NCBI GenBank assembly: GCA_028283765.1 | Contig: JAPWJY010000007.1 | Location: 1-64,000 of the forward strand | Direction: 5' to 3' | Source: Parvibaculaceae bacterium | Lineage (GTDB): Bacteria; Pseudomonadota; Alphaproteobacteria; Parvibaculales; Parvibaculaceae | DNA: 64,000 bases | Part shown: in pieces, positions 14,168 through 38,735 of the stretch | Position numbering within the stretch: the stretch's first letter is position 1 | Layout: the number at the start of each line of letters is the position of its first letter | Program-made: the position numbers and the translations under genes | Notes under the pieces: model-generated | The model's database searches: none | What the model saw: the letters and a program-made list of their open reading frames with translations, nothing else | What the model was told of the DNA's origin: nothing

Positions 14168-15130
14168 TGCCACCTCCAACTTAGCGTCGCTCGCCGATGC
14201 GTAACGTGTCTACTTGCGTACTCGTGTCAGGATTTCCTTAATTTGTTTCTGGAGCCAATCCTACATTGGCCTTGCATAGGGTCACTACAAAAACTGGCGC
14301 CCGCGCGGGGGTAAATCCCGCGCGCCGGGCCGTCGTAAACCGAGCCCGCTTGCGGTCTCGGCCCTTCGGCTTCCGTCCCTGGCGCTTCCGCCCGTTTCAC
14401 GGTCGGGGTGCCGGTTCATCGCGCTTTCCATCATGATTGCGTCGTCAGATGTGTGGTGCCGAGGGGTTGATCGGCAGTGAAATTCAGTCGGCCCGGCTCC
14501 CAGTGCATACCGTTAGCCGCTCTTTCCATCGGCGTCATCCTGGACATCGGCACGCTTGCGGCAGGGCTGAAGCGCGGCGTCGTTCTGTACTGATCCCGGT
14601 GGTTCGTCCCGTCATGGCGGTCAGGACGACCGGCGTAAATCATCAACGCGGCGATGCCGATGGGGCGCAGTGCCGGCGCCGCTTCTGTTCTTCTCTCCGT
14701 TGACGGGTTTGGCGATCTGGACGGCGATATCGGTCCTGAAAAAGCCGGTGATGGCATCGTCCGTGGCAGTGAGCGGCGCGGCCGACTGGCCATTCGTTTC
14801 CTTGGTTTGCCAGTCTATCGCATCAGTCACCATCCCTGCATGTCCCTGATCGCGTAAAGCCCGCGCCGGGCCGTTCAACCCGCCGTTCGGAAAAATTTCC
14901 CCTGTCGCTAGCGCGCCATTCCTCGCGGTCGCTGCGCTCCAAATTTTCCCGCTCGGGCGGGTGCTCCACGATGTTTCGCCCCATTCCCTTTCCATTCGGC
15001 GGCCAATGGCCGCCTATTTTTTATGAGCGCGCAAGGGCGCGCGGGGGGTGAACAGATCCGGCCTGACGGTCTTTTCGCTGGTGACATCGCAGGGATGGTC
15101 CCTGGCGACGAACAGCGAAGGAAACTCATC
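14168..15130. other. About 960-bp region without a confident gene
   Basis: Between the HEPN-like gene start and the DUF736 gene no frame combines a good start, a Shine-Dalgarno site and a recognisable protein. Open minus-strand frames at 14431-14793 and 14621-14995 overlap each other and look like decayed coding sequence. The first 100 bases should hold the promoter of the HEPN-like gene. A strong GC hairpin (CCCGCGCGGGGG and CCCGCGCG) lies near 14299-14322. The end (15000-15130) is the leader of the DUF736 gene. An origin of transfer or a structured RNA here cannot be excluded. Confidence 0.4.
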
Positions 15131-15469
15131 ATGGCTATCACCCTCGGCACCTTCACCAAGATGGACGACGGCGTTTTCACCGGAGTCATCAAGACCCTCA
15201 ACATCACCGCCAACCTTACCATCGTCCCGGTGACGAAACAGTCCGAACAGGCCCCCGATTACCGCGTCTATGCCGGCAACGGCCAGCGGTACGAAGTCGG
15301 CGCCGGTTGGAGCCAGGTCGCCAAGACCAGCGGCGAAACCTACCTCAACCTCAAGATCGGCGCCCCCGAATTCGGCCCCAACTGGCTGCGCGCCCGCCTG
15401 GTCAAGCTGGAATCGCCGGAGCCGGACGGCCCCACCCATCTGGCCCTGTGGGAGCCGAAAGACCGCTGA
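15131..15469 (+). CDS. DUF736 family protein (copy 1)
   Basis: 112 residues starting MAITLGTFTKMDDGVFTGVI, with the DUF736 hallmarks KTLNITANLTIVPV, APDYRVYAGNGQRYEVGAGW and LRARLVKLESPEPDGPTHLALWEP. DUF736 proteins are small beta-rich proteins of proteobacterial ICEs and plasmids with no assigned activity. The gene stands alone behind a long leader and ends at a strong terminator, so it is its own transcription unit. A second, shorter DUF736 paralogue is at 38362-38679. Confidence 0.9.
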   Translation: MAITLGTFTKMDDGVFTGVIKTLNITANLTIVPVTKQSEQAPDYRVYAGNGQRYEVGAGWSQVAKTSGETYLNLKIGAPEFGPNWLRARLVKLESPEPDGPTHLALWEPKDR

Positions 15470-15487
15470 ATTCCCCGCCTCCCAAGA

Positions 15488-15514
15488 CCCCGCCGGACAG
15501 CCCATCCGGCGGGG
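15488..15514 (+). terminator. Rho-independent terminator of the DUF736 gene
   Basis: A perfect 10-bp stem CCCCGCCGGA/TCCGGCGGGG with a 7-base loop is followed by CTTTCT, 18 bases after the DUF736 stop. The 289 bases after it up to the next gene hold no recognised gene. Confidence 0.8.
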
Positions 15515-15803
15515 CTTTCTCATGCTGTCATCGCGCTGAACCGGCGTAATTGATGCGGAGTCGGCGCGGGCGCGCCGACAGGCTTTCCGTCTCGAAAGTC
15601 CCAGTGTGCCATCCGGCAGGGCGATCCCGTCAAGGATCGCGGGCACCCTCCAAAATTCTCCGTTCCGCGGGCTCCACTCCCGAATTTTGGCTCCTCCCGC
15701 GCCCGCTTGCGCGGCGGCTTCGCCGTCCTTGACCGGCTCTACCCGGATGACGGGGGAACCCGTTCTCGACCGAGAGAACAGTTCAATCGCAGGAGGTTTC
15801 ACC

Positions 15804-16013
15804 ATGTCCATCCAGTTCGACCATGCCCAAGATATCCGCATCGCGTATCGCGGCCATCTCTATGCCGAAGATGAGCTGCGTGAAGAAATCTGGCTCGTCA
15901 CCATCGAACTCCGCAACGGTCTGCCGAAGCGCGAGCGCATCGACGCCGAATGGCAGATCGCACAATGCGAGACGCTTCTCGATCGCTTGCGGAAGAGGCG
16001 CGCGGGGGCCTGA
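15804..16013 (+). CDS. Small conserved ICE protein, unknown function
   Basis: 69 residues starting MSIQFDHAQDIRIAYRGHLY. A perfect AGGAGG at 15791-15796 sits seven bases before the ATG, which decides the start. The sequence is acidic and ends in a basic helix (LLDRLRKRRAGA). No domain is recognised. It precedes the excisionase-like HTH gene by about 140 bp and may belong to the same unit. It is believable as a gene because of the ribosome binding site and coding-like composition. Confidence 0.6.
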   Translation: MSIQFDHAQDIRIAYRGHLYAEDELREEIWLVTIELRNGLPKRERIDAEWQIAQCETLLDRLRKRRAGA

Positions 16014-16156
16014 CCCCCGCTTTTTTTGAGTCGCCATTCTGTCGTGAACAGGGGGCTCGATTTCGATCCCCCCCGTTTATCGAGCGTCCCCGCACACGCT
16101 CGCCGCCGCCATCCTTTGACCAATCCAGACGATTTTCGCCAAAGGACTTGAAACGG

Positions 16157-16393
16157 ATGACGGACGATAACACACGGGCCGCCGAGGCCCGTAAGGGCTC
16201 GCCTTTTCTCTCGACCAGAGAAGCCGCCTATTACCTCGGCCTTTCCTTCCGCACCCTCGAAAAGATGCGTTTCACTGGCAACGGGCCACGCTTTCGCAAA
16301 CACGGTCGCTATGTCCGCTATCACATCGCCGATCTCGATGCATGGTCGGAAGGACGGCGGCATCACTCGACGTCGGAAACGGAGGAGCGGTGA
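16157..16393 (+). CDS. Helix-turn-helix (MerR/excisionase-like) DNA-binding protein
   Basis: 78 residues. The core FLSTREAAYYLGLSFRTLEKMR, followed by GNGPRFRKHGRYVRYHIADLDAW, is the winged-helix pattern of the AlpA/excisionase/MerR-type HTH_17 family. These small proteins act as excisionases or as regulators of transfer operons. The stop overlaps the ATG of traF (TGATG), so the two are translationally coupled. It may therefore regulate the traF-transglycosylase unit or, if an integrase were present, direct excision. Confidence 0.85.
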   Translation: MTDDNTRAAEARKGSPFLSTREAAYYLGLSFRTLEKMRFTGNGPRFRKHGRYVRYHIADLDAWSEGRRHHSTSETEER

Positions 16394-16890
16394 TGCGAAA
16401 GAGAGTCGTATCCATCACCGCCGCCATCGGCATCACCGCCGTCGGGTTCGCTGGCCTCCCGCGGCCAACACCAGTCATTGTCTGGAACGCCTCGGCAAGC
16501 GCTCCCATCGGTCTCTATCGTGTCGTTCCCGGCACGCCGCAACGCGGTGATCTGGTCCTGGTCCGCACACCGCGATCCATCGAGACGCTCGCCGGTACCC
16601 GCCACTATCTGCCTGCCGGTGTGCTTCTGGTCAAACATATCGCCGCCGGTGGTGGCGACCGAGTCTGCGCCGCCGGGGGGACGATTTTCATCAATGGCCA
16701 GCCTGTCGTCCGTCAGCTTGACGCCGATCGTGCGGGCCGGCTCTTGCCGCGTTGGACCGGCTGCCGGGCATTGGCACAGGGCGAAGTGTTCCTGCTGAAC
16801 ATGCCGGAGGAGTCCTTCGATAGCCGCTATTTCGGGCCGGTGCCGACCGCCAATATCATCGGGAGGCTCGTCGCCCTATGGACCGAATGA
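16393..16890 (+). CDS. traF: TraF, conjugative signal-peptidase-like protease (S26)
   Basis: 165 residues. An N-terminal membrane anchor (about 5-22) is followed by NASASAPIGLYRV, holding the nucleophilic Ser, and by LLVKHIAAGGGDRVC, holding the general-base Lys. This is the Ser/Lys dyad of S26 peptidases of the RP4 TraF type. In RP4, TraF cyclises the TrbC pilin after processing. Here trbC lies 13 kb downstream in the same element. The stop overlaps the start of the transglycosylase gene by 13 bases, indicating coupled translation. Confidence 0.9.
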   Translation: MRKRVVSITAAIGITAVGFAGLPRPTPVIVWNASASAPIGLYRVVPGTPQRGDLVLVRTPRSIETLAGTRHYLPAGVLLVKHIAAGGGDRVCAAGGTIFINGQPVVRQLDADRAGRLLPRWTGCRALAQGEVFLLNMPEESFDSRYFGPVPTANIIGRLVALWTE

Positions 16891-17507
16891 GCCTCGTCTT
16901 CCTGGCCGCGACCAGCGCCTTGATCGCCCCCGCCCACGCGGATTCTCTCGACCAATGGCAGGGACAGATTGCCGAAGCCTCGCAGCGTTTCGCAATTCCA
17001 GCCGCCTGGATACGCTCCGTCATCAATGCCGAAAGCGGTGGCGAAGCCAAGGCCGTTTCGCAAAAAGGGGCTATGGGATTGATGCAGCTCATGCCGGAAA
17101 CTTGGGCGGAGATGCGGGCCAGATACGCCCTCGGCGACGATCCCTTCGATCCGCGCGCCAACATTCTCGCCGGCACCGCCTATCTCAAAATGATGCACGA
17201 CCGCTTCGGTTATCCAGCCCTGTTCGCCGCCTATAACGCTGGGGCCGCCCGATATGAACAGTCCGTGCGTACTGGCAAATCGCTGCCTGCCGAGACCTTG
17301 GCCTACATCGCCGAGGTGGAAAAGACGCTGTCCGGCGTGCCTGACTCCACGCTGGGGAATCCCACGATGCCGATGCAAATTGTCTCGGGAACACGGCTGT
17401 TTTTTACGCTTTCCCGCGCAGAAGATGGCGCTCGCGGCGATGCAAACGCGGGTCCATCCAACGGCCTCTTCATCCCTCTTTCAACACCGAAATCCGACGG
17501 AAATTGA
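16878..17507 (+). CDS. Lytic transglycosylase (TrbN/VirB1-like)
   Basis: 209 residues with a signal peptide (MDRMSLVFLAATSALIAPAHA). The SLT domain shows the catalytic Glu in SVINAESGGEAKAVS, then GAMGLMQLMPETW and ALFAAYNAGAARY. It opens the peptidoglycan locally for assembly of the mating pore. It forms one unit with the upstream HTH and traF genes. Downstream genes usual in this ICE type (DUF2840, parA) are not found; an IS110-family element follows instead. Confidence 0.9.
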   Translation: MDRMSLVFLAATSALIAPAHADSLDQWQGQIAEASQRFAIPAAWIRSVINAESGGEAKAVSQKGAMGLMQLMPETWAEMRARYALGDDPFDPRANILAGTAYLKMMHDRFGYPALFAAYNAGAARYEQSVRTGKSLPAETLAYIAEVEKTLSGVPDSTLGNPTMPMQIVSGTRLFFTLSRAEDGARGDANAGPSNGLFIPLSTPKSDGN

Positions 17508-17747
17508 ACGCGCACAGACCATTGTGTCCGGTCTTGGCGCTGCCGGGTTTCTTTCCCTTTCGATAAGGACAGCGCAGATGAGCGTAGGTGGTCGCAGAGC
17601 GGATCACGAATTCGGTTTAGTGCCGGTGTAATCGGGCATGACGCAGCGCCGGCCGCGCCGAAACGTACCCGCAAGCCGTCATTGGCCGGCACACTGCCCG
17701 TCACCGGCGCCGATCCTCGGCCGCCGAAGCGACGGAGGGCGGCGGCG

Positions 17748-18830
17748 ATGGCTCACTTTGCAGGACTGGACGTGTCGATCGAGGAGACGGCGGTGTGCGT
17801 CGTCGATGAAGAGGGGACGGTGCTGATGCAATGTTCCGTCGCGACCGAACCGGAGGCCATCGCCAAGGTGCTCTTGCCGTTCGCGGCAACGCTGAAGCGC
17901 GCCGGCCACGAGGCCGGGTCGCTGTCGCCCTGGCTGCATCCGGAATTGAAGGCGCAGGGCATTCCGGTGGTCTGCCTGGAGACGCGCCAGGTGCGCGCGG
18001 CGATGTCGGCCCAGCGCAACAAGACCGACGCCACCGACGCGCTGGGCCTCGCGCATCTGATGCGCACGGGCTGGTTCCGCCAGGCTCATGTGAAGACCGA
18101 GGGCGCCTACCGGCTGAAGCTGCTCTTGACCCATCGCCGCAACCTGAAGCGCAAGTTCCTCGACCTGGAGAACGCCATCCGCCACTCGCTGAAGAGCTTC
18201 GGCGTGAAGCTCGGCAAGGTGAGCCGCGGCGCCATGGAGCAGGCCGTCCGCGACGCCTGCGCCGACGATCCGCTGACCGCCGAGCTGATGGACTGCATGC
18301 TGACGGCGCGCGCGGCGCTGTGGAAACAGTACCTCAAGCTGCACAACCTGGTGGTCCGGCTGGTGGCGCGCGACGAGTTGTGCCGGCGCTTCATGGCGAT
18401 CCCCGGCGTGGGGCCGGTGACCGCGCTAACCTTCAGCACGGCGATCGACGATCCGAGGCGGTTCCGGCGCTCGCGCGACGTCGCCGCCTATTTCGGCCTG
18501 ACGTCCAGGCGCTGGCAGTCGGGCACGTCGATCGACGTGCAGGGCCGCATCAGCAAGCAAGGCGATCCGGAGGTCCGGCGCGCGCTCTACGAGGCGGCCA
18601 GCGCCATGCTGACGCGCTACAAGGGCAAGACGGCGCTCAAGAGCTGGGGCCAGAAGATCGCCAAGCGCTGCCACAAGAAGGCGGTGGTGGCGATGGCCCG
18701 CAAGCTCGTCGTCGTCATGCACGCGATGTGGCGCGACGGCACGGTCTATGCCGATCGGCCGCTCGCCGACGGTTCGTCCGGCGCCGCGCCGACGGCGAAG
18801 GATATCAGGCTTCTGGGCGCTTTCGCATGA
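17748..18830 (+). CDS. IS110-family transposase
   Basis: 360 residues from ATG 17748. The N-terminal DEDD RuvC-like domain shows FAGLDVSIEETAV (first Asp) and NKTDATDALGLAHLM (later Asp pair). The C-terminal Tnp2 domain shows MAIPGVGPVTALTFSTAIDDP, AYFGLTSRRWQSG and EVRRALYEAA. IS110/IS1111 enzymes lack terminal inverted repeats and use a bridge (seeker) RNA encoded in a non-coding end to choose the target. About 240 bp upstream and about 530 bp downstream are gene-free and probably hold the element ends and this RNA. The insertion separates the transglycosylase and relaxase genes. Confidence 0.9.
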   Translation: MAHFAGLDVSIEETAVCVVDEEGTVLMQCSVATEPEAIAKVLLPFAATLKRAGHEAGSLSPWLHPELKAQGIPVVCLETRQVRAAMSAQRNKTDATDALGLAHLMRTGWFRQAHVKTEGAYRLKLLLTHRRNLKRKFLDLENAIRHSLKSFGVKLGKVSRGAMEQAVRDACADDPLTAELMDCMLTARAALWKQYLKLHNLVVRLVARDELCRRFMAIPGVGPVTALTFSTAIDDPRRFRRSRDVAAYFGLTSRRWQSGTSIDVQGRISKQGDPEVRRALYEAASAMLTRYKGKTALKSWGQKIAKRCHKKAVVAMARKLVVVMHAMWRDGTVYADRPLADGSSGAAPTAKDIRLLGAFA

Positions 18831-19362
18831 CCCGCGGCGAGCCCATCAACCCCATGCTGGCGCGCGGCTGAGCGCCCAATGAGATCCGCCCCGGCGGATA
18901 AGGACTGATGCAGACCATGGACGACGGGAAGCACGATATCTTGCCTGTGGCCGGAGCGATCCTGGACCACGCTCGAATGCCTGTGATGCTGCCCCGCCAA
19001 TCCGATGCCGACATGCGCCGCGACGGATCGACGACCGCCAAGACGGTCCCAATCCCGCCGTCGATGAGCGCGGAAGAGTGCACGGCGCATCAGGACTCGC
19101 TGACCGGAGACGGATCGACCGGCTGGCTCGGCAATGAGCGCGCCGTATCGCAGAACAGCGCAAGTCCGGATACAATGGAGAACAGGAGACGAAAATGGCC
19201 GAGAAGAGGAAAGAGACCCCGATTAAGAGGGCAAGATAAAAGACGGCCTCCTGGCCGTCCGTACATCCTTGTCTGCACATCCTTTTATCCGGAGGCTGCC
19301 GCTCCCGTCGGAGGCTCTCTTCCGCAACGTGTTGATTTTCTTGAGTCTCGGAGGAGACAGCC
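18831..19362 (+). other. Gene-free flank of the IS110-family transposase; candidate bridge-RNA end
   Basis: About 530 bases with no convincing gene. A 13-codon frame at 19195-19236 with a good ribosome site is the only mini-ORF. A hairpin ACGGCC/GGCCGT lies at 19242-19257 and a GGAGGCT repeat around 19290-19315. In IS1111-group elements the long 3' non-coding end encodes the guide RNA; in IS110-group elements it is the 5' end. The longer downstream flank favours the former, but the IS ends could not be fixed. The last 30 bases hold the ribosome site (GGAGGAGA) of the relaxase gene. Confidence 0.35.
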
Positions 19363-19671
19363 ATGACCGACGACGAGTTCGAGCCACGGCTCGGCAAGAT
19401 CCGCTCACGAGGGCAAAAGGGAACCAAGAGCTTCGGTCATCTTCTGCTGGCGGCGATCAATCGCGCGGGCGGCAAACAGATGCGCAAACCGGGCGCCAGC
19501 TTGCGCCGCATCGGCCGTGGTGGAGCGGCGGGCGCGATCCTGGGCAACCGCGATCATTATGCCGCGCTTCGCCAGCGTCGGGTGATCGTCAAGGCTCGCA
19601 TCGTTAAACTGGCCAGCAAAGGCATGAACGGCGCACGGGCGCATCTGCGCTATATCCAGCGCACGGCGTGA
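19363..19671 (+). pseudogene. Relaxase N-terminal fragment (frameshifted)
   Basis: 102 codons starting MTDDEFEPRLGKIRSRG, which is the normal start of VirD2-like DUF3363 relaxases. The frame ends at TGA 19669, directly after the catalytic-Tyr motif RAHLRYIQR. Relatives continue D-G-V-T-R; here one G is missing after CAGCGC (19657-19662), which shifts the frame. The rest of the protein continues at 19668 in the +2 register. As written, this piece carries the nucleophilic Tyr (Tyr97) without the metal-binding histidines. Confidence 0.8.
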
Positions 19672-21332
19672 CCCGCGAAGGGGAACGGGGACAGCTCTAT
19701 GATGCCGGACAGGACCGGGCGGACGGCAAAGCGTTCCTGGAACGGGCAGAGGGCGACCGCCACCAGTTCCGTTTCATCGTCGCCCCGGAGGACGGCATCG
19801 AATACGACGATTTGAAGCCGCTCACCCGGCGTTTGATGGCGCAGATGGAAGAGGATCTCGGCACGCACCTCGATTGGGTGGCGGTGGACCATTTCAACAC
19901 CGGCCACCCGCACAGCCATATCATCGTTCGCGGCAAGGCTGATGACGGGCACGATCTGGTCATTGCCCGCGATTACATCGCCACCGGCATCCGTGAGCGC
20001 GCCGCCGAGCTGGTTGGCCTCGATCTCGGCCCACGCACCGACCGCGCTATCGAAGACCGGTTGCGCGCCGAGATGGACCAGGAGCGTCTGACCAGTCTTG
20101 ACCGGCACTTGTTGCGCTTGGCTGATGACGATCATCGTGTCGCTCCGGCCAGCCGGGATGCCGTCCGTCAGACATTGCTAACCGGTCGCCTCAAGCGGCT
20201 GGAGCGCTTGGGGCTCGCCGAGGAACTGCGGTCCGGTCAATGGCGCTTGGCTGATGACATCGAAGAGACGCTGCGCCGCATGGGCGAACGCGGCGACATC
20301 ATCAAGACCCTGCATCGCGAGACGGCGGAAAAGAACATCGCCCGTTCTCCCGCCGATTACTGGGTCCATGATCCCGCCGACCGGAACACGACACCCGTCG
20401 TCGGACGTGTGGTGGCGCGCGGGCTTTCCGACGAGTTGAACGATCGCCACTACCTGATCGTCGATGGCGCCGATGGCCGCGCCCATTACATCGACATCGG
20501 CCGGGGCGAGGCGACCGAACCGACGCCCGAGGGCATCATCGTGCGGGTGACTGCGAAAGGCACCGAGCCGCGTCCGATGGATCATACCGTCGCCGAAGTG
20601 GCGTCCCTGAACGGCGGGCGCTACACCATCGACCTGCACTTGAGACACGATCCCCCGGCCACGGAAGATTTCGCCGAAACCCATGTGCGGCGGCTGGAAG
20701 CGATCCGCCGCGCGACCGGCGGCGTGACGCGCGAACCGGATGGCGCCTGGATCATCGCCCCCGATCATCTGGACCGCGTGGCCGACTATGAACGCCGACG
20801 GGCCAAATCCGCGCCGGTCATCGTCGAAAAACTCTCGCACCTCACGCTCGACCAGCAGATCGGTTCGGACGGTGCGACCTGGCTGGACCGCGAACTGGTT
20901 TCCGGGACAACGGAGCCCACCCGCGATTCCGGCTTCGGCCATGAGGTACGCGAGGGAATGAACCGCCGTCGGCAATGGCTGATCGAACAGGGTTTGGCGC
21001 AGGAAGAACAGGACCGCACGATCTACCGCGCCAACATGCTGGCCATCTTGCGCCGGCACGAACTGACCCGGGGTGCCGGGCAACTCTCGGATCAGCTCGG
21101 CCTCGCCTATGCCGAAACCCGATCCGGGGACGTAGTGGAAGGCCGTCTCGTTCGCGCCATCGAACTCGCCAGCGGAAAATTCGCCATCGTCGAGAACGCC
21201 CGCGAGTTCACCCTGGTGCCCTGGCGGCCGGTGCTGGAACCGCACATCGGCAAGACGGTCTCCGGCATTATGCGTGGTGACGGCATTTCCTGGACCATCG
21301 GGCGGGGACGGGGTGGGCCGAGCATTTCGTGA
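19668..21332 (+). CDS. Relaxase main part (VirD2-like, DUF3363), lacking the Tyr motif
   Basis: 554 residues beginning at GTG 19668, which overlaps the stop of the preceding fragment (GTGA). Near residue 80, DWVAVDHFNTGHPHSHIIVRG carries the histidine triad that binds the metal of relaxases. The C-terminal region is the DUF3363 part. The relaxase nicks oriT, becomes bound to the 5' end and is carried to the recipient. Split from its Tyr motif, it would be active only if the overlap lets ribosomes slip or if both pieces associate. A sequencing error of one base is the other simple explanation. Confidence 0.8.
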   Translation: MTREGERGQLYDAGQDRADGKAFLERAEGDRHQFRFIVAPEDGIEYDDLKPLTRRLMAQMEEDLGTHLDWVAVDHFNTGHPHSHIIVRGKADDGHDLVIARDYIATGIRERAAELVGLDLGPRTDRAIEDRLRAEMDQERLTSLDRHLLRLADDDHRVAPASRDAVRQTLLTGRLKRLERLGLAEELRSGQWRLADDIEETLRRMGERGDIIKTLHRETAEKNIARSPADYWVHDPADRNTTPVVGRVVARGLSDELNDRHYLIVDGADGRAHYIDIGRGEATEPTPEGIIVRVTAKGTEPRPMDHTVAEVASLNGGRYTIDLHLRHDPPATEDFAETHVRRLEAIRRATGGVTREPDGAWIIAPDHLDRVADYERRRAKSAPVIVEKLSHLTLDQQIGSDGATWLDRELVSGTTEPTRDSGFGHEVREGMNRRRQWLIEQGLAQEEQDRTIYRANMLAILRRHELTRGAGQLSDQLGLAYAETRSGDVVEGRLVRAIELASGKFAIVENAREFTLVPWRPVLEPHIGKTVSGIMRGDGISWTIGRGRGGPSIS

Positions 21333-21474
21333 AGACGCCCGGTCCCCGGCTTGCTTCATTCTGATTTCAAAGCGCGTCGAGACCATAGCTTAACGCCATC
21401 GACAATTTGTGGTATATGGCTCTGATATCTCGCGGACAGGCAGCATACCGTGCGGCCTGGAGATTTTCTTTATC

Positions 21475-22764
21475 GTGGAGGGAGTTATCGCCGCATATCG
21501 CTTTGTCCACGCGGCGGACGTTCATCTTGATTCGCCGCTACGCTCGCTTGCTTTGCGCGATTCTGACTTGGCGTCGCTGGTCGGCAACGCCACGCGGCGA
21601 GCGTTTGTCCGCATTATCGACCTGTGCCTTGATGAGCAGGTCGATGCGCTTTTGCTGGCTGGCGACATCTATGATGGCGATCAAACTTCGATGAAGACGG
21701 CTCGCTTCCTGTCAGAGCAGCTCCGGCGGCTCTCCGAAGCAGGTATCCGGACCTTCATCATCCGCGGCAATCACGACGCTTCATCCCGCATCACCAAAGA
21801 ACTGGTTTTCCCGGACTCGGTGAAGGTGTTTGGGGGGCGGGCCGAAGTTGTGGCCGTGGAACGGGAGACCGGAGATTTTCCCGTTGTCATCCACGGCCTG
21901 AGCTTCACCCAACCGCAAGCGCCAGAAAGTCTGATCGGAAAGTACAAAGCCCCTGTTTCCGATGCGGTGAATATCGGGATCATGCATACGAGTTTGGCCG
22001 GCGCTCCAGGGCACGATGTTTATGCGCCGTGCAGTCTTGCCGACATCCAGAAGACAGGGTTCCAGTATTGGGCGCTCGGTCATGTTCACAAGCGTATGGT
22101 TGCGGAAGGACCGTGCACGGTTGTTATGCCAGGCATACCCCAGGGCCGCGACATCAATGAGGCCGGAGCAAAATCAGCGACGTTGGTGACCATCCTGGAT
22201 GATCGCACAGTTCAGATCGAGGAGTGCGTCACCAGCCTCGCGCAGTTTGAGCGGATCGGTATCGATGTAAACGGGATCGAGGATTGGCGGAGTCTCGTGG
22301 GCCGCGTCAGCCATTTCCTCGAAGCGGCCCGTCAGGAAATTTCTTCAGACCATTTGGTGGCTCGTCTCCATCTGACCGGGACCACACCGCTGGCTTGGCG
22401 TATCCGACGAGACATCGATCTCTTAACGACAGAGGCTCAAGAGCGGGCGTCAGTTATCGGTGCCTGCTGGGTCGAAAAACTGGAAACATCCTGTCAGCCG
22501 GCCCACGCCATCGCTGCTGAAAACTCATCCGATCCCCTCCTGGAATTGCGAGGTTTAATCGAGAGAGAAGTGATCGGTGCCGATGCGTTCCAGGCAGACC
22601 TGGCCACTGCGGCTGATGAGTTGCGCAAAAAGCTCCCGGCGGAATGCCGCGACATCTTCGGCGCCGATGAGGCGACATCCCGGGACAATCTCGCGCTTCT
22701 GGCGCGTGATGGGATGGAAGACGCACTCGCTCGTCTCCATGCGGACCAAAAGGACGAGCACTGA
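21475..22764 (+). CDS. SbcD/YhaO-like metallophosphoesterase (DNA exonuclease subunit)
   Basis: About 429 residues from GTG 21475; the start is uncertain and the frame is open back to 21409. The calcineurin-like nuclease motifs are all present in order: VHAADVHLD, ALLLAGDIYDG, IIRGNHDA and YWALGHVHKR. The C-terminal 170 residues are a capping or partner-binding region. The stop overlaps the ATG of the large ATPase (TGATG), as in sbcDC and yhaON operons. A Mre11/Rad50-type complex that cuts DNA ends or hairpins is expected. Its place between relaxase and traG is unusual for this ICE type and marks it as inserted cargo. Confidence 0.85.
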   Translation: MEGVIAAYRFVHAADVHLDSPLRSLALRDSDLASLVGNATRRAFVRIIDLCLDEQVDALLLAGDIYDGDQTSMKTARFLSEQLRRLSEAGIRTFIIRGNHDASSRITKELVFPDSVKVFGGRAEVVAVERETGDFPVVIHGLSFTQPQAPESLIGKYKAPVSDAVNIGIMHTSLAGAPGHDVYAPCSLADIQKTGFQYWALGHVHKRMVAEGPCTVVMPGIPQGRDINEAGAKSATLVTILDDRTVQIEECVTSLAQFERIGIDVNGIEDWRSLVGRVSHFLEAARQEISSDHLVARLHLTGTTPLAWRIRRDIDLLTTEAQERASVIGACWVEKLETSCQPAHAIAAENSSDPLLELRGLIEREVIGADAFQADLATAADELRKKLPAECRDIFGADEATSRDNLALLARDGMEDALARLHADQKDEH

Positions 22765-25700
22765 TGCGCCTGAAACGCCTCGACCTCACCCGCTATGGTA
22801 AATTCACGGACCATCATGTCGATTTCGGTGAGCCTGTGGCTGGGGCACCGGACCTTCACATCGTCTACGGTCCGAACGAAGCAGGCAAGTCCACTCTGTT
22901 CGCCGCTTGGTTGGACCTGCTTTACGGCATCGGGATGCAGAGCCCCTTCAATTTCCTGCATCCTTATTCGTCTATGCGAATCGGCGGAGCACTGGAATTT
23001 TCCGGCGGCGCGCGGGAATTCGCGCGCATCAAGCGGCCACAAAACAGTCTGCTCGATGCACACGATCAGGCGATTGGTGAAAATGCGATCCTCGGTGAGC
23101 TGGGCGGCATTGATCGGGAAGCCTATCGCACGATGTTCTCGCTCGACGACGACAGCTTAGAGGAAGGTGGCGAGAGTATCCTGAAGGCCAGGGGCGATCT
23201 CGGCCAACTCCTTTTCTCGGGCAGTAGCGGTCTCGCCGACCTCAGTCGCAAGATCGCGGATTTGCACTCCGAGGCGGACGGATTTTACAAATCCCACGCG
23301 CGATCGGGACAACTGCACGATTTGCAGAAAGAACTCGACCGTCTCAAGCAAGAACGAGCACAGATTGACACGCAGGCATCGAAATACGCGGAATTGTCGG
23401 AGGCCGCCAAGCGCGCCAAAGCCCGCCATGATGAGACAACGGTGCGACGCGGTCAGAGTCAGGCGCGCAAGGACGAAATCCAACGCCTTTTGAATGCCAG
23501 ACCACGCCTTGCAAAGTTGCGCTCTCTCCGCGAGCAACTTGCTCCCCTGGAAGGGCTTCCTGACGCACCGGCCGGATGGGCGGAGACACTGCCGACTTTG
23601 CGCGAAGAGGAAATCAAACTCGAAACGCAGATCGCCGCAAACGCGGATGAGGTGGAACGCTCGACGTCTGCGGTTGAAGCAATTGGCGTAGACCAAGTCG
23701 GATTGAGCCTGGCCGGGAAGTTGGATGACGCCGACTCATTGCGCGCCCGGTATCTGACCGCTGAGAAGGACGTACCGGATCGTCGGCAGAAATTGCATGA
23801 CCTGGATCACGCTATCGCTTTCCAACTGCGGCAAATCGAACGGGAAGGAGAAGCAAATCCAGGGTCGCTGATCCTACCCGCGTCCACAGTCGAGCGCTTG
23901 CGCGAGTTGATCGAGTCCCGTTCGGGCATTGAGACAGCGGTAAGCCAAGCGGAGGAAGAGTGGACCGAAGCGCGGCATCGTTTGCAGGCGACTGAGGACA
24001 AGCTCGCCGATGCCGCCGATCCGTCGTCTCCGGCTGGCGACAGAGGAAATCTCCTTGAGAACCTCAAGCTGGCACTCGCCGCGCTGCGCCAAAGCGACCA
24101 TGCCGCCCGGAGAAGGCTCGCTGACCGCGCATATCTTGAGGGGCGGTCTGCGCTGGATGATTGTCTCGCTGCGCTGGTTCCGTGGCATGGCGACGAGGAC
24201 CAACTGGTCGCTATGATTGTTCCCGCGCTTGAAACCATCCAGCGATGGAAGACGGCATGGGACGCCAGTCAAAAGCGGGTTGATCAGCACCACGGCGAGA
24301 TGGCCCGACTGCAAAGCGAGTGTGTACGCCTGTCGGCGCAACGCGACGCTACGACCAGTGTAACGGGATTGGTCACCGATCAGGATGCTGTCGCTATCCG
24401 GGCTGAGCGAGATCATGCTTGGGCGGAGCATCGAAGCCGCCTTGATGCGACATCGGCGGACCGGTTTGAAGATGTGTTACGCCGCGACGATGGCGTTGTT
24501 GCCCAACGGTTCGGGCACATGGTGGAACTCGCGCAACTTCATGAAACGTCCAGGGCCTTGAAGATCGCGCAATCCGACTTTGCCCGCGCCGAGGAGTTGC
24601 ATGCCCAATCTCTCGCCGATTCTGAGACTTTGGCGAGGGAAATCGCAAAGGCGATAAGCGAACTGTCGCCCTTGCTACCGTCCGATTGGACATTGCCGCA
24701 GATCGAAGGCTGGCTTGCACGCCGGGACAAGGCGCTGGAAGCGCGTGCCAGCGTTCGGACTGCGGAGAGGGATTTGCAGCAGGCGCAGGATGACGCCACC
24801 GTTCTGGGACAGCGCCTCACCGCTACACTGCGTACCTTGAACATTCCTGTGGCGGCGGATGCCGACGAAACGTCGCTCATCGCGGCAGCTCAGGCGTCTG
24901 TCGATAGCGAGGCGGAATATCGGCGCCATCAGCAGACTTTGGAAGAACGGCAGCGCGATGCCGCTGCCCGGAAGCGCGCCTTCGAGCGGGCCGAAACCGG
25001 AAAGCAGCAATGGGACGCAGCTTGGAAAGAGATTGGCGGGGCCTGTTGGCTTGGTGAGAGCGGCGCTATGCCGTCCATTGCCGCCGTGCGCGGCATTCTT
25101 GCGGTGACTTCTGAACTGGCATCCACGTTGAAGGAACGAACGATGCTTGCCGATCGCATCGCCAAGATGGAGAAGGATCAGCGAGAATTCCAAGATTTCG
25201 TGATCTCCTTGGCAGATGCGGCAGGTATCGCTCAAGCAGACGCCTCCGCCGTAATGGATCTGCTCCGCCAAATTGAAGAGCGGGCCAGGAAAGCCGATGC
25301 AGACCGTACCCGTAAAACCGAGGAAATGGAGCGGCTCGAAGCCGCCCGCGCCATTTCACGGGAACTGGCCGAACAGAAGGTTGTTCACGATCGGCGCAAG
25401 CAGGAAATGACCTCGTATTTTGGAGTTGTCACTCTGGCCGAGGTTGCGACAAAGCTCGGCCAGATCGTCTTGAGGAACAGTGCGCAGCGAGAGCTGGCCG
25501 AGGTGGCGCAAGAAATTCTCACGGCATTACGGTCCACCAGCTTGGCCGAAGCCGAAGCGATGCTCGATTCCGCCGATCAGGCGGCCTTGGGAACAGAACT
25601 CGCTGAAATCACCGCGCAGGCGGAAACCCTGGAGCAGGAGTGGCGCGATTCCTACGCCACCTACAAGGACGCCGAAAAACAGATCGATGCCATCGGCGGT

Positions 25701-26273
25701 GACGCCAGTGTCGCGGAAATCGAGGAGAAAAGGCGTACCATTCTGGTTGAAATCGAAGAGCGCGCTCGACGTTACATGCGATTGCGCGCTGGTGCGATGG
25801 TTACGGAGAGGGCGTTACGCCTTTATCGGGAACAACACCGCAGTTCCATGATGGCGCACGCTTCCGAGGCGCTCCGTGTCATCAGCCGCGGCGCCTACAC
25901 CCAATTAACGACGCAGCCGGACAAGGACAGCGAAGTTCTGGTCGCGATTGCGGCGGACAAGGGTTCCAAACTGGTAACGGAGATGTCGAAGGGAACGCGC
26001 TTTCAGCTCTACCTCGCACTGCGCGTCGCTGGTTATTTCGAGTTCGCCAAAACCCGAAGCCCGGTTCCGTTCATCGCCGACGACATCATGGAAACGTTTG
26101 ACGACTTCCGCGCTGAGGAAGCCTTCCGGCTGTTCTCGCAAATGGCGGAGGCTGGCCAAGTAATCTATCTCACTCACCATCGGCATCTCTGCGAAATCGC
26201 CCGCGAGGTTTGCCCGACCGTGAAGGTTCATGATCTGTCCGGCCTCGTCACGCCTGAGCGTGAAACCGCGTAA
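22764..26273 (+). CDS. SbcC/YhaN-like SMC-type ATPase
   Basis: 1169 residues. Walker A (IVYGPNEAGKST) lies near residue 35, preceded by MRLKRLDLTRYGKFTDH, the AAA_27/YhaN-type start. A central part of roughly 750 residues is rich in heptads and charged residues, as expected for coiled coils. The C-terminal head has the signature-like MSKGTRFQLYLALRVA, the Walker B segment PFIADDIMETFDD and the switch His in YLTHHRHL. It probably forms a Rad50/Mre11-like machine with the preceding nuclease. In a conjugative element it could act in defence against other DNA, in processing of incoming DNA or in repair; this is undetermined. Confidence 0.85.
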   Translation: MRLKRLDLTRYGKFTDHHVDFGEPVAGAPDLHIVYGPNEAGKSTLFAAWLDLLYGIGMQSPFNFLHPYSSMRIGGALEFSGGAREFARIKRPQNSLLDAHDQAIGENAILGELGGIDREAYRTMFSLDDDSLEEGGESILKARGDLGQLLFSGSSGLADLSRKIADLHSEADGFYKSHARSGQLHDLQKELDRLKQERAQIDTQASKYAELSEAAKRAKARHDETTVRRGQSQARKDEIQRLLNARPRLAKLRSLREQLAPLEGLPDAPAGWAETLPTLREEEIKLETQIAANADEVERSTSAVEAIGVDQVGLSLAGKLDDADSLRARYLTAEKDVPDRRQKLHDLDHAIAFQLRQIEREGEANPGSLILPASTVERLRELIESRSGIETAVSQAEEEWTEARHRLQATEDKLADAADPSSPAGDRGNLLENLKLALAALRQSDHAARRRLADRAYLEGRSALDDCLAALVPWHGDEDQLVAMIVPALETIQRWKTAWDASQKRVDQHHGEMARLQSECVRLSAQRDATTSVTGLVTDQDAVAIRAERDHAWAEHRSRLDATSADRFEDVLRRDDGVVAQRFGHMVELAQLHETSRALKIAQSDFARAEELHAQSLADSETLAREIAKAISELSPLLPSDWTLPQIEGWLARRDKALEARASVRTAERDLQQAQDDATVLGQRLTATLRTLNIPVAADADETSLIAAAQASVDSEAEYRRHQQTLEERQRDAAARKRAFERAETGKQQWDAAWKEIGGACWLGESGAMPSIAAVRGILAVTSELASTLKERTMLADRIAKMEKDQREFQDFVISLADAAGIAQADASAVMDLLRQIEERARKADADRTRKTEEMERLEAARAISRELAEQKVVHDRRKQEMTSYFGVVTLAEVATKLGQIVLRNSAQRELAEVAQEILTALRSTSLAEAEAMLDSADQAALGTELAEITAQAETLEQEWRDSYATYKDAEKQIDAIGGDASVAEIEEKRRTILVEIEERARRYMRLRAGAMVTERALRLYREQHRSSMMAHASEALRVISRGAYTQLTTQPDKDSEVLVAIAADKGSKLVTEMSKGTRFQLYLALRVAGYFEFAKTRSPVPFIADDIMETFDDFRAEEAFRLFSQMAEAGQVIYLTHHRHLCEIAREVCPTVKVHDLSGLVTPERETA

Positions 26274-26440: not shown

Positions 26441-26497
26441 TTTCCGTCTTTCCACGCGATGCTCGTTCCGTTTGTCCCCTGTAACGGAACGGTGCCC

Positions 26498-28534
26498 ATG
26501 ACCCCTACCAAGCTTTTGATCGGTCAGATCATCATCGTCTTCGCCATGACCATCACCGGCGTGTGGTCGGCGACGGAGTGGTGCGCGTCCATGCTCGGCT
26601 TTCAACCGCAACTCGGGCCGCCGTGGTTCGTGCTGTTCGGTTGGCCGGTCTACGAGCCATGGGCGTTGTTCCCGTGGTGGTATCATTACGATGCCTATGC
26701 GCCGCAAATCTTCGATACGGCGGGGATGCTGGCGGGCGCCAGCGGGTTCATGGGATGCGCCACCGCCATCGTCGGCTCGCTTTGGCGGGCGCGGCAGACC
26801 CGGCTGGTGACCACCTATGGCTCGTCACGCTGGGCTTTGAAGCGCGAAGTTGAAAGGGCCGGGCTGTTCCGGGCGGCGGGGGTGTTTCTCGGGCGATATG
26901 GCGACGAGTATCTCCGCCATGATGGGCCTGAGCATGTCATGGCGTTCGCACCAACGCGCTCGGGTAAGGGCGTTGGGCTAGTGGTGCCGACGCTGCTGTC
27001 GTGGACCGGCTCGGCGGTGATTCATGACATCAAGGGCGAGAACTGGCAGTTGACGGCGGGGTGGCGAGCGAAGTTCTCGCACTGCCTGCTGTTCAATCCC
27101 ACCGATCCGCGTTCCGCCCGCTACAATCCGCTGCTGGAAGTGCGCAAGGGGCCGGACGAGGTGCGTGACGTTCAAAACATCGCCGACATCCTGGTGGACC
27201 CGGAAGGGGCGCTGGAACGGCGCAGTCACTGGGAAAAGACCAGCCATTCGCTGCTGGTCGGCGCCATCCTGCATGTGCTGTACGCCGAGGAGGAGAAGAC
27301 CCTGGCGCGGGTGGCGACGTTCCTGTCCGATCCGCAGCGCAGCTTTGCCCATACCCTGCGGCGGATGATGGCGACTAATCATCTCGGCACGCCGGATCAT
27401 CCGCAAGTTCACCCGGTGGTGGCCTCCGCCGCGCGCGAGGTGCTGAACAAGTCGGAGAACGAACGCTCCGGCGTGCTGTCCACCGCCATGTCGTTCCTGG
27501 GTCTCTATCGCGATCCCACGGTGGCGCAGACCACGTCGGCCTGCGATTGGCGTATCGCCGATCTGATGGATGCCGAGCACCCGGTGTCGCTCTATCTGGT
27601 GATTCCGCCCTCCGACATTTCACGGACCAAACCGCTGGTGCGGTTGGTGCTGAACCAGATCGGGCGGCGGTTGACCGAGCGGCTGGAAGGCGATCCCAAG
27701 AAAACCCGCAAACACCAGCTTTTGATGATGCTGGACGAGTTCCCGGCTCTGGGGCGGCTGGATTTCTTCGAGACGGCGTTGGCCTTCATGGCCGGGTACG
27801 GCATTCGCGCCTATCTGATCGCTCAATCCTTGAATCAGATTTCCAAAGCCTATGGCGAGAACAACGCCATCCTCGACAATTGCCATGTCCGCATCGCCTT
27901 TTCCTCCAACGACGAGCGAACGGCCAAGCGGATTTCCGACGCGCTGGGGACAGCGACAGAATTGCGCGCCCAACGCAATTACGCCGGACACCGGCTGGCC
28001 CCATGGCTGTCGCATGTGATGGTGTCCCGGCAAGAGACGGCCCGTCCGCTGCTGACCCCCGGCGAGGTGATGCAGTTGCCGCCTGCCGATGAGCTGGTAC
28101 TGGTCTCCGGCCTGTTGCCGATCCGGGCCAAGAAACTGCGCTACTACGAGGACCGGAATTTCACTGGGCGGGTCTTGAGCGCGCCTTCATTGGCGACCGG
28201 CGGCTACGCCGACAAGCCGCAGCCGCGCGCCGATGATTGGAGCGGCCAGGTGCGGGACATCGATGACCGTCTGATGCCACCCGACGAGGATGGCGTAAAG
28301 CGCACTGCGATGGGTGATGAAGGCGGTCTTCAGCAGCAGCGCCATCCCAGCCTCGGGCAGGATGCGCCGACCGGCACCCCTGAGCCGAACCAGGGCGAAT
28401 TGTTCACCTCGCCTGACGAGGACAACGACACCGTAGCCGACGCCCAAGTCATGGATAGGATTTCGACTGCGGCGCGGGTCTATGGCGTCGATGAAGGCAT
28501 GAAGCACGACCAGGACATCGTGCCGGGATTCTAA
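26498..28534 (+). CDS. traG: TraG/VirD4 coupling protein
   Basis: 678 residues from ATG 26498. Two N-terminal membrane segments (about 8-28 and 70-95) are followed by Walker A (APTRSGKGVGLVVPTLL) near residue 150 and Walker B (LLMMLDEFPALG) near 410. It is the ATPase that links the relaxase-DNA complex to the mating pore. The C-terminal 80 residues are acidic and variable. It stands alone between the SbcDC-like pair and the trb operon, preceded by the repeated upstream element. Confidence 0.95.
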   Translation: MTPTKLLIGQIIIVFAMTITGVWSATEWCASMLGFQPQLGPPWFVLFGWPVYEPWALFPWWYHYDAYAPQIFDTAGMLAGASGFMGCATAIVGSLWRARQTRLVTTYGSSRWALKREVERAGLFRAAGVFLGRYGDEYLRHDGPEHVMAFAPTRSGKGVGLVVPTLLSWTGSAVIHDIKGENWQLTAGWRAKFSHCLLFNPTDPRSARYNPLLEVRKGPDEVRDVQNIADILVDPEGALERRSHWEKTSHSLLVGAILHVLYAEEEKTLARVATFLSDPQRSFAHTLRRMMATNHLGTPDHPQVHPVVASAAREVLNKSENERSGVLSTAMSFLGLYRDPTVAQTTSACDWRIADLMDAEHPVSLYLVIPPSDISRTKPLVRLVLNQIGRRLTERLEGDPKKTRKHQLLMMLDEFPALGRLDFFETALAFMAGYGIRAYLIAQSLNQISKAYGENNAILDNCHVRIAFSSNDERTAKRISDALGTATELRAQRNYAGHRLAPWLSHVMVSRQETARPLLTPGEVMQLPPADELVLVSGLLPIRAKKLRYYEDRNFTGRVLSAPSLATGGYADKPQPRADDWSGQVRDIDDRLMPPDEDGVKRTAMGDEGGLQQQRHPSLGQDAPTGTPEPNQGELFTSPDEDNDTVADAQVMDRISTAARVYGVDEGMKHDQDIVPGF

Positions 28535-28637: not shown

Positions 28638-29039
28638 ATAAAACACGACAAAATACGCCACCAATTCCTGCTCGATCCGGCCTTGAGCGAAAAGCTCGAC
28701 AAGCTGAGCCGTGGTCCGGGCGTGACCAAATCCGAGATCGTCGCCAAGGCGGTCGCGGCCTTCATCGACCGGCGCGGTGAGACCGAACTCGACCAGCGAT
28801 ACGGCAAGCGTCTCGACCGGATATCGCGCGATCTCGAACGCGCGCGGCGCGACATCGAGATGATCCTCGAAAGCCTCGCACTTTTCATCCGCTTCACCAT
28901 CACGCTCAACGCCCATACGCCGGTACCGGACAAGGCCACCCAGGCGGTGGCCGAGGCACGGTTCCAGAACTTCGTCGAACAGGTCGGCCGCCAGATCGCC
29001 GGTGGCAAGCACGCTTTCGGCGAAAGGGGTGAGCCATGA
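28638..29039 (+). CDS. Ribbon-helix-helix (CopG-like) regulator of the trb operon
   Basis: About 133 residues if started at the ATA of 28638, giving an N-terminus KHDKIRHQFLLDPALSEKLD. That matches this family, whose members start with an ATG at this very place. A GGGA lies eight bases upstream. No ATG, GTG or TTG exists upstream in frame before a stop at 28608. The next usable start is TTG 28683, which would delete the first strand of the DNA-binding domain. The rest (VTKSEIVAKAVAAFIDRRG) is the helix pair, followed by a helical tail. It overlaps trbB by four bases and is the likely autoregulator of the operon. Confidence 0.7.
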   Translation: MKHDKIRHQFLLDPALSEKLDKLSRGPGVTKSEIVAKAVAAFIDRRGETELDQRYGKRLDRISRDLERARRDIEMILESLALFIRFTITLNAHTPVPDKATQAVAEARFQNFVEQVGRQIAGGKHAFGERGEP

Positions 29040-30001
29040 CCGACACGGCCAACCAACGTCGCCACGCCATGCTGAAGACGGCCATGGGACCGGCCATCGC
29101 CCAAGCCTTGGCCGACCCCGCGATCATCGAGGTGATGGTCAATCCCGATGGGAGCCTGTGGATTGATCGGCTGGGCGAGGGACGCTTTTCCGCTGACGTG
29201 CGCATCCATGCGTCCGAGGTGGAGCGGATCATCCGGCTGGTCGCGTCCCATGTGCGCACCGAAGTCCATGCCGACAATCCCATCGTCAGTGCGGAGCTGC
29301 CCTCCGGTGAACGCTTCGAGGGACTATTGCCGCCGGTGACGAAAGGGCCGTGCTTCGCCATCCGCAAACCGGCGGCCAGGATCTTCACACTCGCCGATTA
29401 TGTCCGCGAACGGATCATGCTGCCCGTTCAGGCTGACACCCTGCGCCAGGCTGTGCGTGAGCGGCGCAATATCCTGATCGCCGGTGGCACGTCGTCGGGC
29501 AAGACCACGCTGGCCAACGCGCTGCTGGCGGAAATCGCCGGCAGCGGCGAACGGGTGATCCTGATCGAGGATACGAGCGAGCTGCAATGCGCCGCCAGGG
29601 ATTGCGTGGCGCTTCGCACCAAACCGGGAATCGTCACGCTGGCCGATCTCGTCCGCTCGACGCTCCGTCTGAGGCCCGACCGGATCATTGTCGGCGAGGT
29701 GCGCGGGGCCGAAGCGCTCGACATGCTGAAAGCCTGGAACACCGGCCATCCCGGCGGCATCGCCACCGTCCACGCCAACTCGGCCCGCTCGGCGCTCTAT
29801 CGCGTCGAGCACCTCGTTCAGGAGGGCGTCGCCACCGTGCCCCGCCGCCTGATCGCCGAGGCTATCGACATCATCGTCTTCATTGCCGGTCGCGGTGCCA
29901 ACCGCCGCGTCGAAACCATCGCCGAAATCGCCGGCCTCGACGAAGGCGGCGATTACGCCGTCACCACCCTCGATACCAACAGACCTGAACCGACCACCTG
30001 A
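29036..30001 (+). CDS. trbB: TrbB, VirB11-like conjugation ATPase
   Basis: 321 residues. Walker A is IAGGTSSGKTTLANALL near residue 145, followed by an Asp box (VILIEDTSELQC), Walker B (RPDRIIVGEVRGAEALDML) and the His box (GHPGGIATVHANS). VirB11-type hexameric ATPases power pilus assembly and substrate transfer at the inner membrane. The gene starts within the stop of the ribbon-helix-helix gene (ATGA) and opens the canonical trbBCDEJLFGI order. Confidence 0.95.
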   Translation: MTDTANQRRHAMLKTAMGPAIAQALADPAIIEVMVNPDGSLWIDRLGEGRFSADVRIHASEVERIIRLVASHVRTEVHADNPIVSAELPSGERFEGLLPPVTKGPCFAIRKPAARIFTLADYVRERIMLPVQADTLRQAVRERRNILIAGGTSSGKTTLANALLAEIAGSGERVILIEDTSELQCAARDCVALRTKPGIVTLADLVRSTLRLRPDRIIVGEVRGAEALDMLKAWNTGHPGGIATVHANSARSALYRVEHLVQEGVATVPRRLIAEAIDIIVFIAGRGANRRVETIAEIAGLDEGGDYAVTTLDTNRPEPTT

Positions 30002-30012
30002 AAGGACCAGTC

Positions 30013-30321
30013 ATGCGCAAGACGCTGCCATGTATCTCAACTGCCGCCGTCACGTTACTGCTCACGGCCCCGGCCTATGCGGCGGGCACGGGCATGCCGT
30101 GGGAACAGCCGCTCCAGCAGATCCTCGATTCCGTCCAGGGGCCGGTGGCCAAGATCATCGCGGTGATGATCATCATCACCACCGGCTTGACCTTGGCCTT
30201 TGGCGAAACCTCGGGCGGCTTCCGCCGCCTGATCCAGATCGTCTTCGGTCTGTCCATCGCCTTTGCCGCGTCGAGTTTCTTCCTGTCGTTCTTCTCGTTC
30301 GGCGGCGGAGCGCTGGTGTAA
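30013..30321 (+). CDS. trbC: TrbC, pilin (VirB2-like)
   Basis: 102 residues: a signal peptide ending AYAAG, then two hydrophobic segments (about 45-65 and 75-95) as in VirB2/TrbC pilins. It is the probable substrate of the TraF protease in this element. It overlaps trbD by one base (TAATG). Confidence 0.9.
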   Translation: MRKTLPCISTAAVTLLLTAPAYAAGTGMPWEQPLQQILDSVQGPVAKIIAVMIIITTGLTLAFGETSGGFRRLIQIVFGLSIAFAASSFFLSFFSFGGGALV

Positions 30322-30590
30322 TGCAGAGCAGCCAGCACATCGCGGGCTTTGAAGTTCCCCTGCACCGGGCACTGACCGAACCGATCCTACTCGGCGGAGC
30401 GCCGCGCGCCGTCGCCATTCTGAACGGCACTCTGGCGGCGGCCATCGGCCTTGGCCTTCAGCAATGGGTCGCCGGCATCGGCCTGTTCGCTGTCGGCCAT
30501 ACCCTGGCGGTGTTCGCGGCCAAACGCGATCCCGATTTCCTCGCCGTCCTGATCCGCCATCTTCGCCAACGGGGGTGGTGGCGATGCTGA
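30321..30590 (+). CDS. trbD: TrbD, VirB3-like protein
   Basis: 89 residues with the family start VPLHRALTEPILLGGAPR, followed by a central hydrophobic hairpin (LNGTLAAAIGLGL and IGLFAVGHTLAVFAA). It is an inner-membrane component associated with TrbE. It overlaps the trbE start by seven bases. Confidence 0.92.
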   Translation: MQSSQHIAGFEVPLHRALTEPILLGGAPRAVAILNGTLAAAIGLGLQQWVAGIGLFAVGHTLAVFAAKRDPDFLAVLIRHLRQRGWWRC

Positions 30591-33040: not shown

Positions 33041-33756
33041 ACCGCAAAGCACTGCTTTCCCTTGGCTTCGCCATCACGCTCGGCACAGCAACGCTGGCCG
33101 ATAGAGCCGTCGCCCAATGGGTCGTCTTCGATCCCTCCAATTATGCCCAGAACGTCATGACAGCCGCGCGGGCGCTGGAGCAAATCAACAACCAGATCCG
33201 CTCGCTCCAGAACGAAACCACCATGTTGCAGAACATGGCCCGCAATCTGGAAAGTCTGAACTATTCCTCGTTGCCGCAGATCACCGGCACGCTCACCCAG
33301 ATCAGTGGGTTGATGAACCAAGCCTCCGGCCTGAGTTTCAACCTCACCCAGCTCGAAGGCCAATGGCAGCAGCAATACCCGTCATCCTATGACGCCACCG
33401 TATCCTCTAGCACCGTCGCGAGCGCGGCGCGCCAGTGTTGGCAGAATGCCATGGCCGCGTTCCAGCAGACCATGCAGGTGCAATCGCAGATCGTTGCCAA
33501 CGTTCAATCCGACCAAAACGCCTTAAGCGATCTCGTCACCCAGAGCCAGGGCGCGGCGGGGGCGTTGCAGGCGCAACAGGCCACAAATCAGCTCGTCGCG
33601 CTGTCCACCAAGCAGCAGATGCAGATCCAAAATCTGATGGCGGCGCAATACCGCGCGGAGGCCGAAGACGCCGCGCGCAAGGCCCAGACCGAAGCGGCGG
33701 CTCGCGCCACCACCACGCGGTTCCTGGGGTCCGCTACGGCCTATTCCGGCAACTGA
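33037..33756 (+). CDS. trbJ: TrbJ, VirB5-like pilus-tip protein
   Basis: 239 residues with a signal peptide (MNRKALLSLGFAITLGTATLADRAVA) and a helical, Gln- and Asn-rich body (QWVVFDPSNYAQNVMTAARALEQINNQI), which is the hallmark of P-type TrbJ. It is predicted periplasmic or pilus-associated. The usual small entry-exclusion gene trbK would come next, but only 21 bases separate it from trbL. Confidence 0.93.
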   Translation: MNRKALLSLGFAITLGTATLADRAVAQWVVFDPSNYAQNVMTAARALEQINNQIRSLQNETTMLQNMARNLESLNYSSLPQITGTLTQISGLMNQASGLSFNLTQLEGQWQQQYPSSYDATVSSSTVASAARQCWQNAMAAFQQTMQVQSQIVANVQSDQNALSDLVTQSQGAAGALQAQQATNQLVALSTKQQMQIQNLMAAQYRAEAEDAARKAQTEAAARATTTRFLGSATAYSGN

Positions 33757-33777
33757 TCCACGGGTGAGGCGCGGGCG

Positions 33778-35133: not shown

Positions 35134-35136
35134 CCC

Positions 35137-35871
35137 ATGCAGTTCCGCCGATCGCTTCAACGCTACGGGCAAACGCCCGAACCCGTCACCCCTTACCAAA
35201 AGGCCGAACAGCTCTGGGACGATCGCATCGGTTCGGCCCGGGTCCAGGCCAGGAACTGGCGGCTCATGGCCTTCGGTTGCTTCGCGCTGTCGGCGGGTCT
35301 GTCTGCTGCGCTGGCTTGGCAATCCATGCAGAGCCGCGTGGTCCCTTACGTCGTCGAAGTCAACAAATTCGGCGAAGTTCATGCGGTGGCACCCGCCATC
35401 CAGAACTATCAACCGACCGACGCGCAAATCGCTTGGTTCCTGGCCCGCTTCATCACCAACGTCCGCGCGGTTTCGACCGATCCGGTGCTGGTGCGCAAGG
35501 ATTGGCTGGCAGCCTACGATTTCGCCACCGACCGAGCCGCCCTTTTTCTCAACGATTACGCCCGCCAGACCGATCCCTTCGGCCAGATCGGCACCCGCAG
35601 TGTCTCGGTACAGATGACCAGCGTCGTCCGCGCCTCCGACAGCTCGTTCCAGGTCAAATGGACCGAACAGGTGTTCGAGCGCGGCAGCCTTGCCTCGACG
35701 TCCCGCTGGACCGCCATCCTCGGCATCGTGCTTCAGCCCCCGCGCACGGCGGAGCAACTCCGCAAGAACCCGCTCGGGTTGTTCGTCAACGCCATCGACT
35801 GGTCGCGGGAATTCGAGGCAACCACGCCCGCTACTTCACCCTCCGATCCGAAAAAGGATGTCGTCCCATGA
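35137..35871 (+). CDS. trbF: TrbF, VirB8-like protein
   Basis: 244 residues. It starts FRRSLQRYGQTPEPVTPYQKA, followed by a single membrane segment (about 45-65) and a periplasmic NTF2-like domain with WTEQVFERG and RWTAILGIVLQPPRTAEQLRKNPLG. It nucleates assembly of the inner-membrane complex. Its stop overlaps the trbG start (ATGA). Confidence 0.94.
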   Translation: MQFRRSLQRYGQTPEPVTPYQKAEQLWDDRIGSARVQARNWRLMAFGCFALSAGLSAALAWQSMQSRVVPYVVEVNKFGEVHAVAPAIQNYQPTDAQIAWFLARFITNVRAVSTDPVLVRKDWLAAYDFATDRAALFLNDYARQTDPFGQIGTRSVSVQMTSVVRASDSSFQVKWTEQVFERGSLASTSRWTAILGIVLQPPRTAEQLRKNPLGLFVNAIDWSREFEATTPATSPSDPKKDVVP

Positions 35872-38679: not shown

Positions 38680-38735
38680 ACAAAGCCATTTATGATCGCC
38701 GGTCCGATTGCGCCGCGAAAGCAGGTGTGATACAA

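Follow-up and report, generated by a model that had tools for sequence, protein, structure and literature searches.

The split rlxS gene and its surroundings

The window analysed here is the whole stretch of 64,000 nucleotides at positions 1 to 64,000 (forward strand) of contig JAPWJY010000007.1 from a Parvibaculaceae bacterium (GCA_028283765.1). It carries a conjugation gene cluster in the order rdfS-like gene, traF, transglycosylase gene, rlxS, then traG and the trb genes, which is the ICEMlSymR7A-type order (PMC8627217). The relaxase gene rlxS lacks one base at an invariant site and consequently lies in two reading frames. The features of the cluster are as follows.

15950 to 16393, plus strand: RdfS-like helix-turn-helix protein (PF12728), whose place ahead of traF is conserved in relatives
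16342 to 16890, plus strand: TraF signal peptidase (PF10502)
16878 to 17507, plus strand: lytic transglycosylase, msi107-like (PF01464), which adjoins rlxS in relatives too
17682 to 18830, plus strand: IS110 transposase (NF033542, 240.7 bits)
19224 to 19301, plus strand: candidate oriT, made up of GGCAAGATAAA, a hairpin, TTGTCTGCACATC, a T-rich part and GGAGGC
19363 to 19671, plus strand: 5' piece of rlxS (ORF1), 102 residues, from ATG 19363 to TGA 19669-19671
19660 to 19671, plus strand: frame-break site, at the codons of R100-D101-G102-V103, creating TGA 19669-19671
19668 to 21332, plus strand: 3' piece of rlxS (ORF2), 554 residues, starting at GTG 19668
26459 to 28534, plus strand: TraG coupling protein, full length (NF010450, 1157 bits, positions 1-662 of 667)
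29036 to 38011, plus strand: mating-pair genes trbB-C-D-E-J-L-F-G-I, each gene that was scanned matching its family

The TrbE match covers positions 1-806 of 815, and TrbD and TrbG were assigned by gene order. Apart from rlxS, the transfer cluster (the oriT-like block, traF, traG and trb) looks intact. The IS110 transposase gene separates the transglycosylase gene from the candidate oriT and rlxS, and relatives gave no match at this place.

The initial annotation had placed the stop of the first frame at 19669-19671 and the GTG of the second at 19668, and an ORF check returned the same coordinates. ORF1 is preceded by a strong ribosome-binding site (GGAGGAG at 19350-19356, SD energy -9.5 kcal/mol) and ends in RAHLRYIQRTA; it runs from the N-terminal region through the first core strand to the helix with Tyr97, the codon of which lies at 19651-19653. 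ORF2 contains the remainder of the nuclease domain, including DHFNTGHPHSH (His codons at 19890, 19905, 19911 and 19917) and the DUF3363 C-terminal region. Both Tyr97 and the HxxxxxxHxH motif are therefore kept, each in its own frame. The break falls between Arg100 (codon 19660-19662) and Asp101-Gly102-Val103, three residues past the catalytic-type Tyr97.

The NCBIfam profile of RlxS (NF041267, 654 positions) matches ORF1 over positions 1-100 with 95.9 bits and ORF2 over positions 104-654 with 900.3 bits, the latter exceeding the curated cut-off of 850 by itself. The profile is thus split at 100/104, and the single open frame of about 654 residues expected for RlxS is absent. ORF2 also matches PF11843 (488 bits) and, over the second half of the domain, the MobA/VirD2 nuclease family PF03432 (22.4 bits). 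No further stop codon lies within ORF2, and a whole-genome profile scan for a second rlxS copy returned the same two pieces only.

Integrase genes and neighbouring genes

The element had been called an ICE. The type IV secretion and coupling genes (traG and trb) agree with that label, but an integrase of its own and flanking att repeats were not found. No PF00589 tyrosine recombinase is encoded in the contig, the copies of the genome being on other contigs, and no large serine recombinase (PF07508) was found in the genome; neither tRNA-linked nor long direct repeats were found as att repeats. As neither a tyrosine nor a large-serine integrase was found nearby, the label is uncertain. The element could rely on a tyrosine recombinase encoded at another place in the genome. 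Of these recombinases, the one on contig C7 looks like XerC and adjoins priA, and the one at C3:615589 is of the P4 type. The element may also have a tripartite integrase arrangement. Another tyrosine recombinase gene, at G000:C3:8310-8809 (L144 and L145) and adjoining an IS91-type transposase gene, is itself in two frames and is a second frame-broken mobile gene of this genome.

Three further observations concern the genes around the cluster. The region 21409-26273, between rlxS and traG, encodes an Mre11/SbcD-like phosphoesterase and, after it, a large AAA_27 (SbcC-like) ATPase. These genes had no homologue in 12 relative stretches, some of which do not reach traG, and gave only weak PADLOC matches; the region looks like a cargo slot. 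An AbiEi/AbiEii toxin-antitoxin pair with strong PADLOC matches lies at 38655-40336, immediately 3' of the trb operon. On the minus strand, an ORF at 15014-15841 is divergent from the rdfS-like gene and conserved in L148, L002 and L035; it had no Pfam or NCBIfam match and is possibly a regulator of the transfer operon.

A candidate oriT ahead of rlxS

The conserved block 133 bases ahead of rlxS is intact here and is kept upstream of rlxS in dozens of relatives (for example at L002:3562, L009:3560, L040:3540 and L114:1286), with a flanking inverted repeat whose arms vary between lineages. Rfam gave no RNA family at this block. The oriT of ICEMlSymR7A is located between msi107 and rlxS (PMC11963761), and the matching position of the block fits its being the oriT of the RlxS family, for which we regard it as a candidate.

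Comparison of the break site with relatives

RlxS loci were taken from named genomes (52), and 44 of them could be aligned at the break site. All 44 are open there, reading through YIQRDGV or a close variant, so the earlier statement that relatives continue uninterrupted through YIQRDGVTRE was borne out, with close variants included. Against the relatives, one base is missing here between the Arg100 codon and the Gly/Val codons, as the initial annotation had it. In a wider set of 40 family and 385 class genomes, which may overlap, every RlxS-like match spanning the break point is uninterrupted. Residues Y97, R100, D101, G102, V103, H177, H184 and H186 are invariant among 27 intact proteins. 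The exact split allele had no match in viral contigs, where RlxS relatives were not found either, and a plasmid search gave only two matches, at 73%.

Compared with close relatives, both pieces have a dN/dS of about 0.16-0.21, equal to the value between two intact relatives. Both pieces are constrained like intact genes, so the break is either recent or an error. Measured against the divergence from known relatives, the lesion is recent, as both pieces are otherwise undamaged; since the closest relatives are about 75% identical, its age can be dated only loosely.

Two other rlxS genes each have a single frame break. In Aminobacter anthyllidis (L043, 3677-5661) it lies well downstream of the His motif, and on contig 269 of G033 (L058, G033:C269 1125-3274) it lies near profile position 286.

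Position of the break in the predicted nuclease fold

Residues 1-300 of the intact relative L002 were modelled using AlphaFold, which predicted the core with confidence (pLDDT mostly 81-95 across residues 71-220). The sole significant PDB match of the model was 2ns6, MobA of plasmid R1162 (E 3e-4, probability 1.00); this MobA-like nuclease fold is that of the MOBP-type relaxases. Tyr97 is within the helix formed by residues 88-101, after the first core strand, and the break falls at 100/101. ORF1 therefore terminates with the Tyr helix, and ORF2 starts without the strand and helix bearing the Tyr. On this model, neither piece by itself should be able to act as a relaxase.

The break had been described as lying between the Tyr motif and the His triad. 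The two motifs are indeed in separate frames, but they share one MobA-like fold, which means that the break cuts into one catalytic domain instead of separating two.

Evaluation of the GTGA overlap and of a programmed frameshift

The initial annotation offered the GTGA overlap as a source of a two-piece relaxase, in which translation would stop at TGA 19669-19671 and restart at the GTG, and the two chains, one with the Tyr and the other with the His cluster, would form an active nuclease. The overlap is exact, and overlapping coupled starts are frequent in this operon (trbJ, trbG and trbI). Translational coupling calls for a restart codon with a ribosome-binding site, which was not found at GTG 19668: the SD energy there is +1.2 kcal/mol, whereas most natural coupled starts of the window and operon reach -5 or better. 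The GTG is also not a newly arisen start but the ancestral, conserved codon of Val103. When one-base deletions were simulated in genes of the same genome, an NTGA overlap in the right frame arose in 50 of 150 cases (about 33%), so such an overlap is readily formed by chance. The split occurs in no relative, it cuts the end of the Tyr helix within a single fold, and split relaxases were not found in the literature. The proposal thus found no support. That the two chains form an active nuclease is very improbable, and it would be just as surprising if the overlap were used to give a working, perhaps weak, relaxase.

A frameshift signal was looked for because FseA (msi172-msi171), from the same ICE family, needs programmed frameshifting: in ICEMlSymR7A it is made from two ORFs in this way (PMC11963761). 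With this precedent, a programmed -1 ribosomal frameshift immediately 5' of the stop would give a full-length RlxS with one residue altered. That residue is the invariant Asp101, which would be lost, and no slippery X XXY YYZ heptamer is present in the 64-nt overlap (19608-19671). A conserved split, also expected of programmed frameshifting, is lacking; the split occurs in a single genome, and as no relative is split here there is no conserved signal. We consider such a frameshift scarcely credible. PF10074, a DUF2285-type domain that FseA should contain, had no match; the control search had none either, so the result carries no weight.

Real mutation or assembly error

The main rival explanation is an assembly or sequencing error, in which case the true gene would be open and RlxS an ordinary full-length relaxase. 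Such an error would leave what is observed here: a one-base indel that stands alone in a gene otherwise pristine and under purifying selection, with the other transfer genes intact. The assembly is a draft, in 9 contigs. The lack of further decay in rlxS is equally expected from an error.

Genes were compared one by one with relatives in the window and four 20-kb stretches of the genome, because an intrinsic scan with a codon model was insensitive and confounded by natural gene overlaps. In that scan (344 kb), rlxS was the top real junction, at a sensitivity of about 25% and with natural gene overlaps looking alike. In the homology comparison, rlxS was the sole frameshift among 45 query ORFs (about 40 genes, 54 kb aligned), which is a weak bound: at 95%, as many as about 3 errors in 54 kb are still possible. 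A second frameshift candidate, L154, was a natural rpmH/rnpA pair and was rejected. The break site is outside any homopolymer, and three 5-base runs inside rlxS are in frame.

The lack of another frameshift and the non-homopolymeric site speak against an error, as do the other signs of immobility in the element; an error is a real possibility, though one that we doubt. On balance, the sole-frameshift and non-homopolymer evidence favours a real mutation, and we infer that the mutation is real.

Proposed consequence of the break

The explanation that we consider the probable one is that a recent one-base loss inactivated rlxS of an ICEMlSym-type cluster, leaving an ICE-like element that is immobile or decaying. 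The break is young, since the dN/dS is like that of intact relatives and ORF2 has no extra stop. Translation from the good start at 19363 would end after 102 residues, and little or no second piece would be expected because the second frame is without an initiation signal. Even if the second piece were made, the nuclease domain, a single one, would be severed at the end of its active-site helix. The element would then not nick its own oriT, and it would not transfer unless RlxS were supplied in trans.

The claim that the element cannot nick its oriT is thus well supported as far as the sequence goes, because the Tyr and His motifs are in different frames, no other RlxS was found and D101-G102-V103 is invariant. 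Nicking, and with it transfer, would probably be lost. The loss of rlxS also fits an element whose transfer operon carries an IS110 and in which no integrase is recognisable. Of the readings, a disabled relaxase gene is likely and a two-part relaxase unlikely.

If the mutation is real, this conjugation cluster still has intact secretion genes but can no longer initiate transfer by itself. Its decay would have started at the relaxase, which is ordinary mobile-element biology. The case also calls for caution: at a frameshift, a start/stop overlap is to be expected by chance in about one case in three, and it does not point to a designed two-part protein.

Comparison with known systems

The RlxS protein of ICEMlSymR7A and of related ICEs and plasmids (MOBP1) shares its sequence with the protein described here except at the broken codons, and the order rdfS-traF-transglycosylase-oriT-rlxS and the upstream oriT-like block are shared as well. 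The known RlxS is a single ORF, whereas the frame here is interrupted at Asp101. FseA is similar in that it, too, comes from a transfer gene with two overlapping ORFs, in this same ICE family; the split and shift of FseA are functional (PMC11963761), in contrast to rlxS, in which the split is confined to a single genome and a shift signal was not found. MobA of R1162 (2ns6) has the nuclease-domain fold in common with RlxS at 15% identity, and the MobA protein is intact. The oriT mapped in a Tn4371-family ICE consists of a conserved core and an inverted repeat (PMC11448139), a make-up that the candidate block resembles. The rlxS genes of Aminobacter anthyllidis and G033 likewise have one frame break in an otherwise intact copy, far downstream in both, whereas the present break is at the Tyr motif; these independent breaks are consistent with ordinary loss of function.
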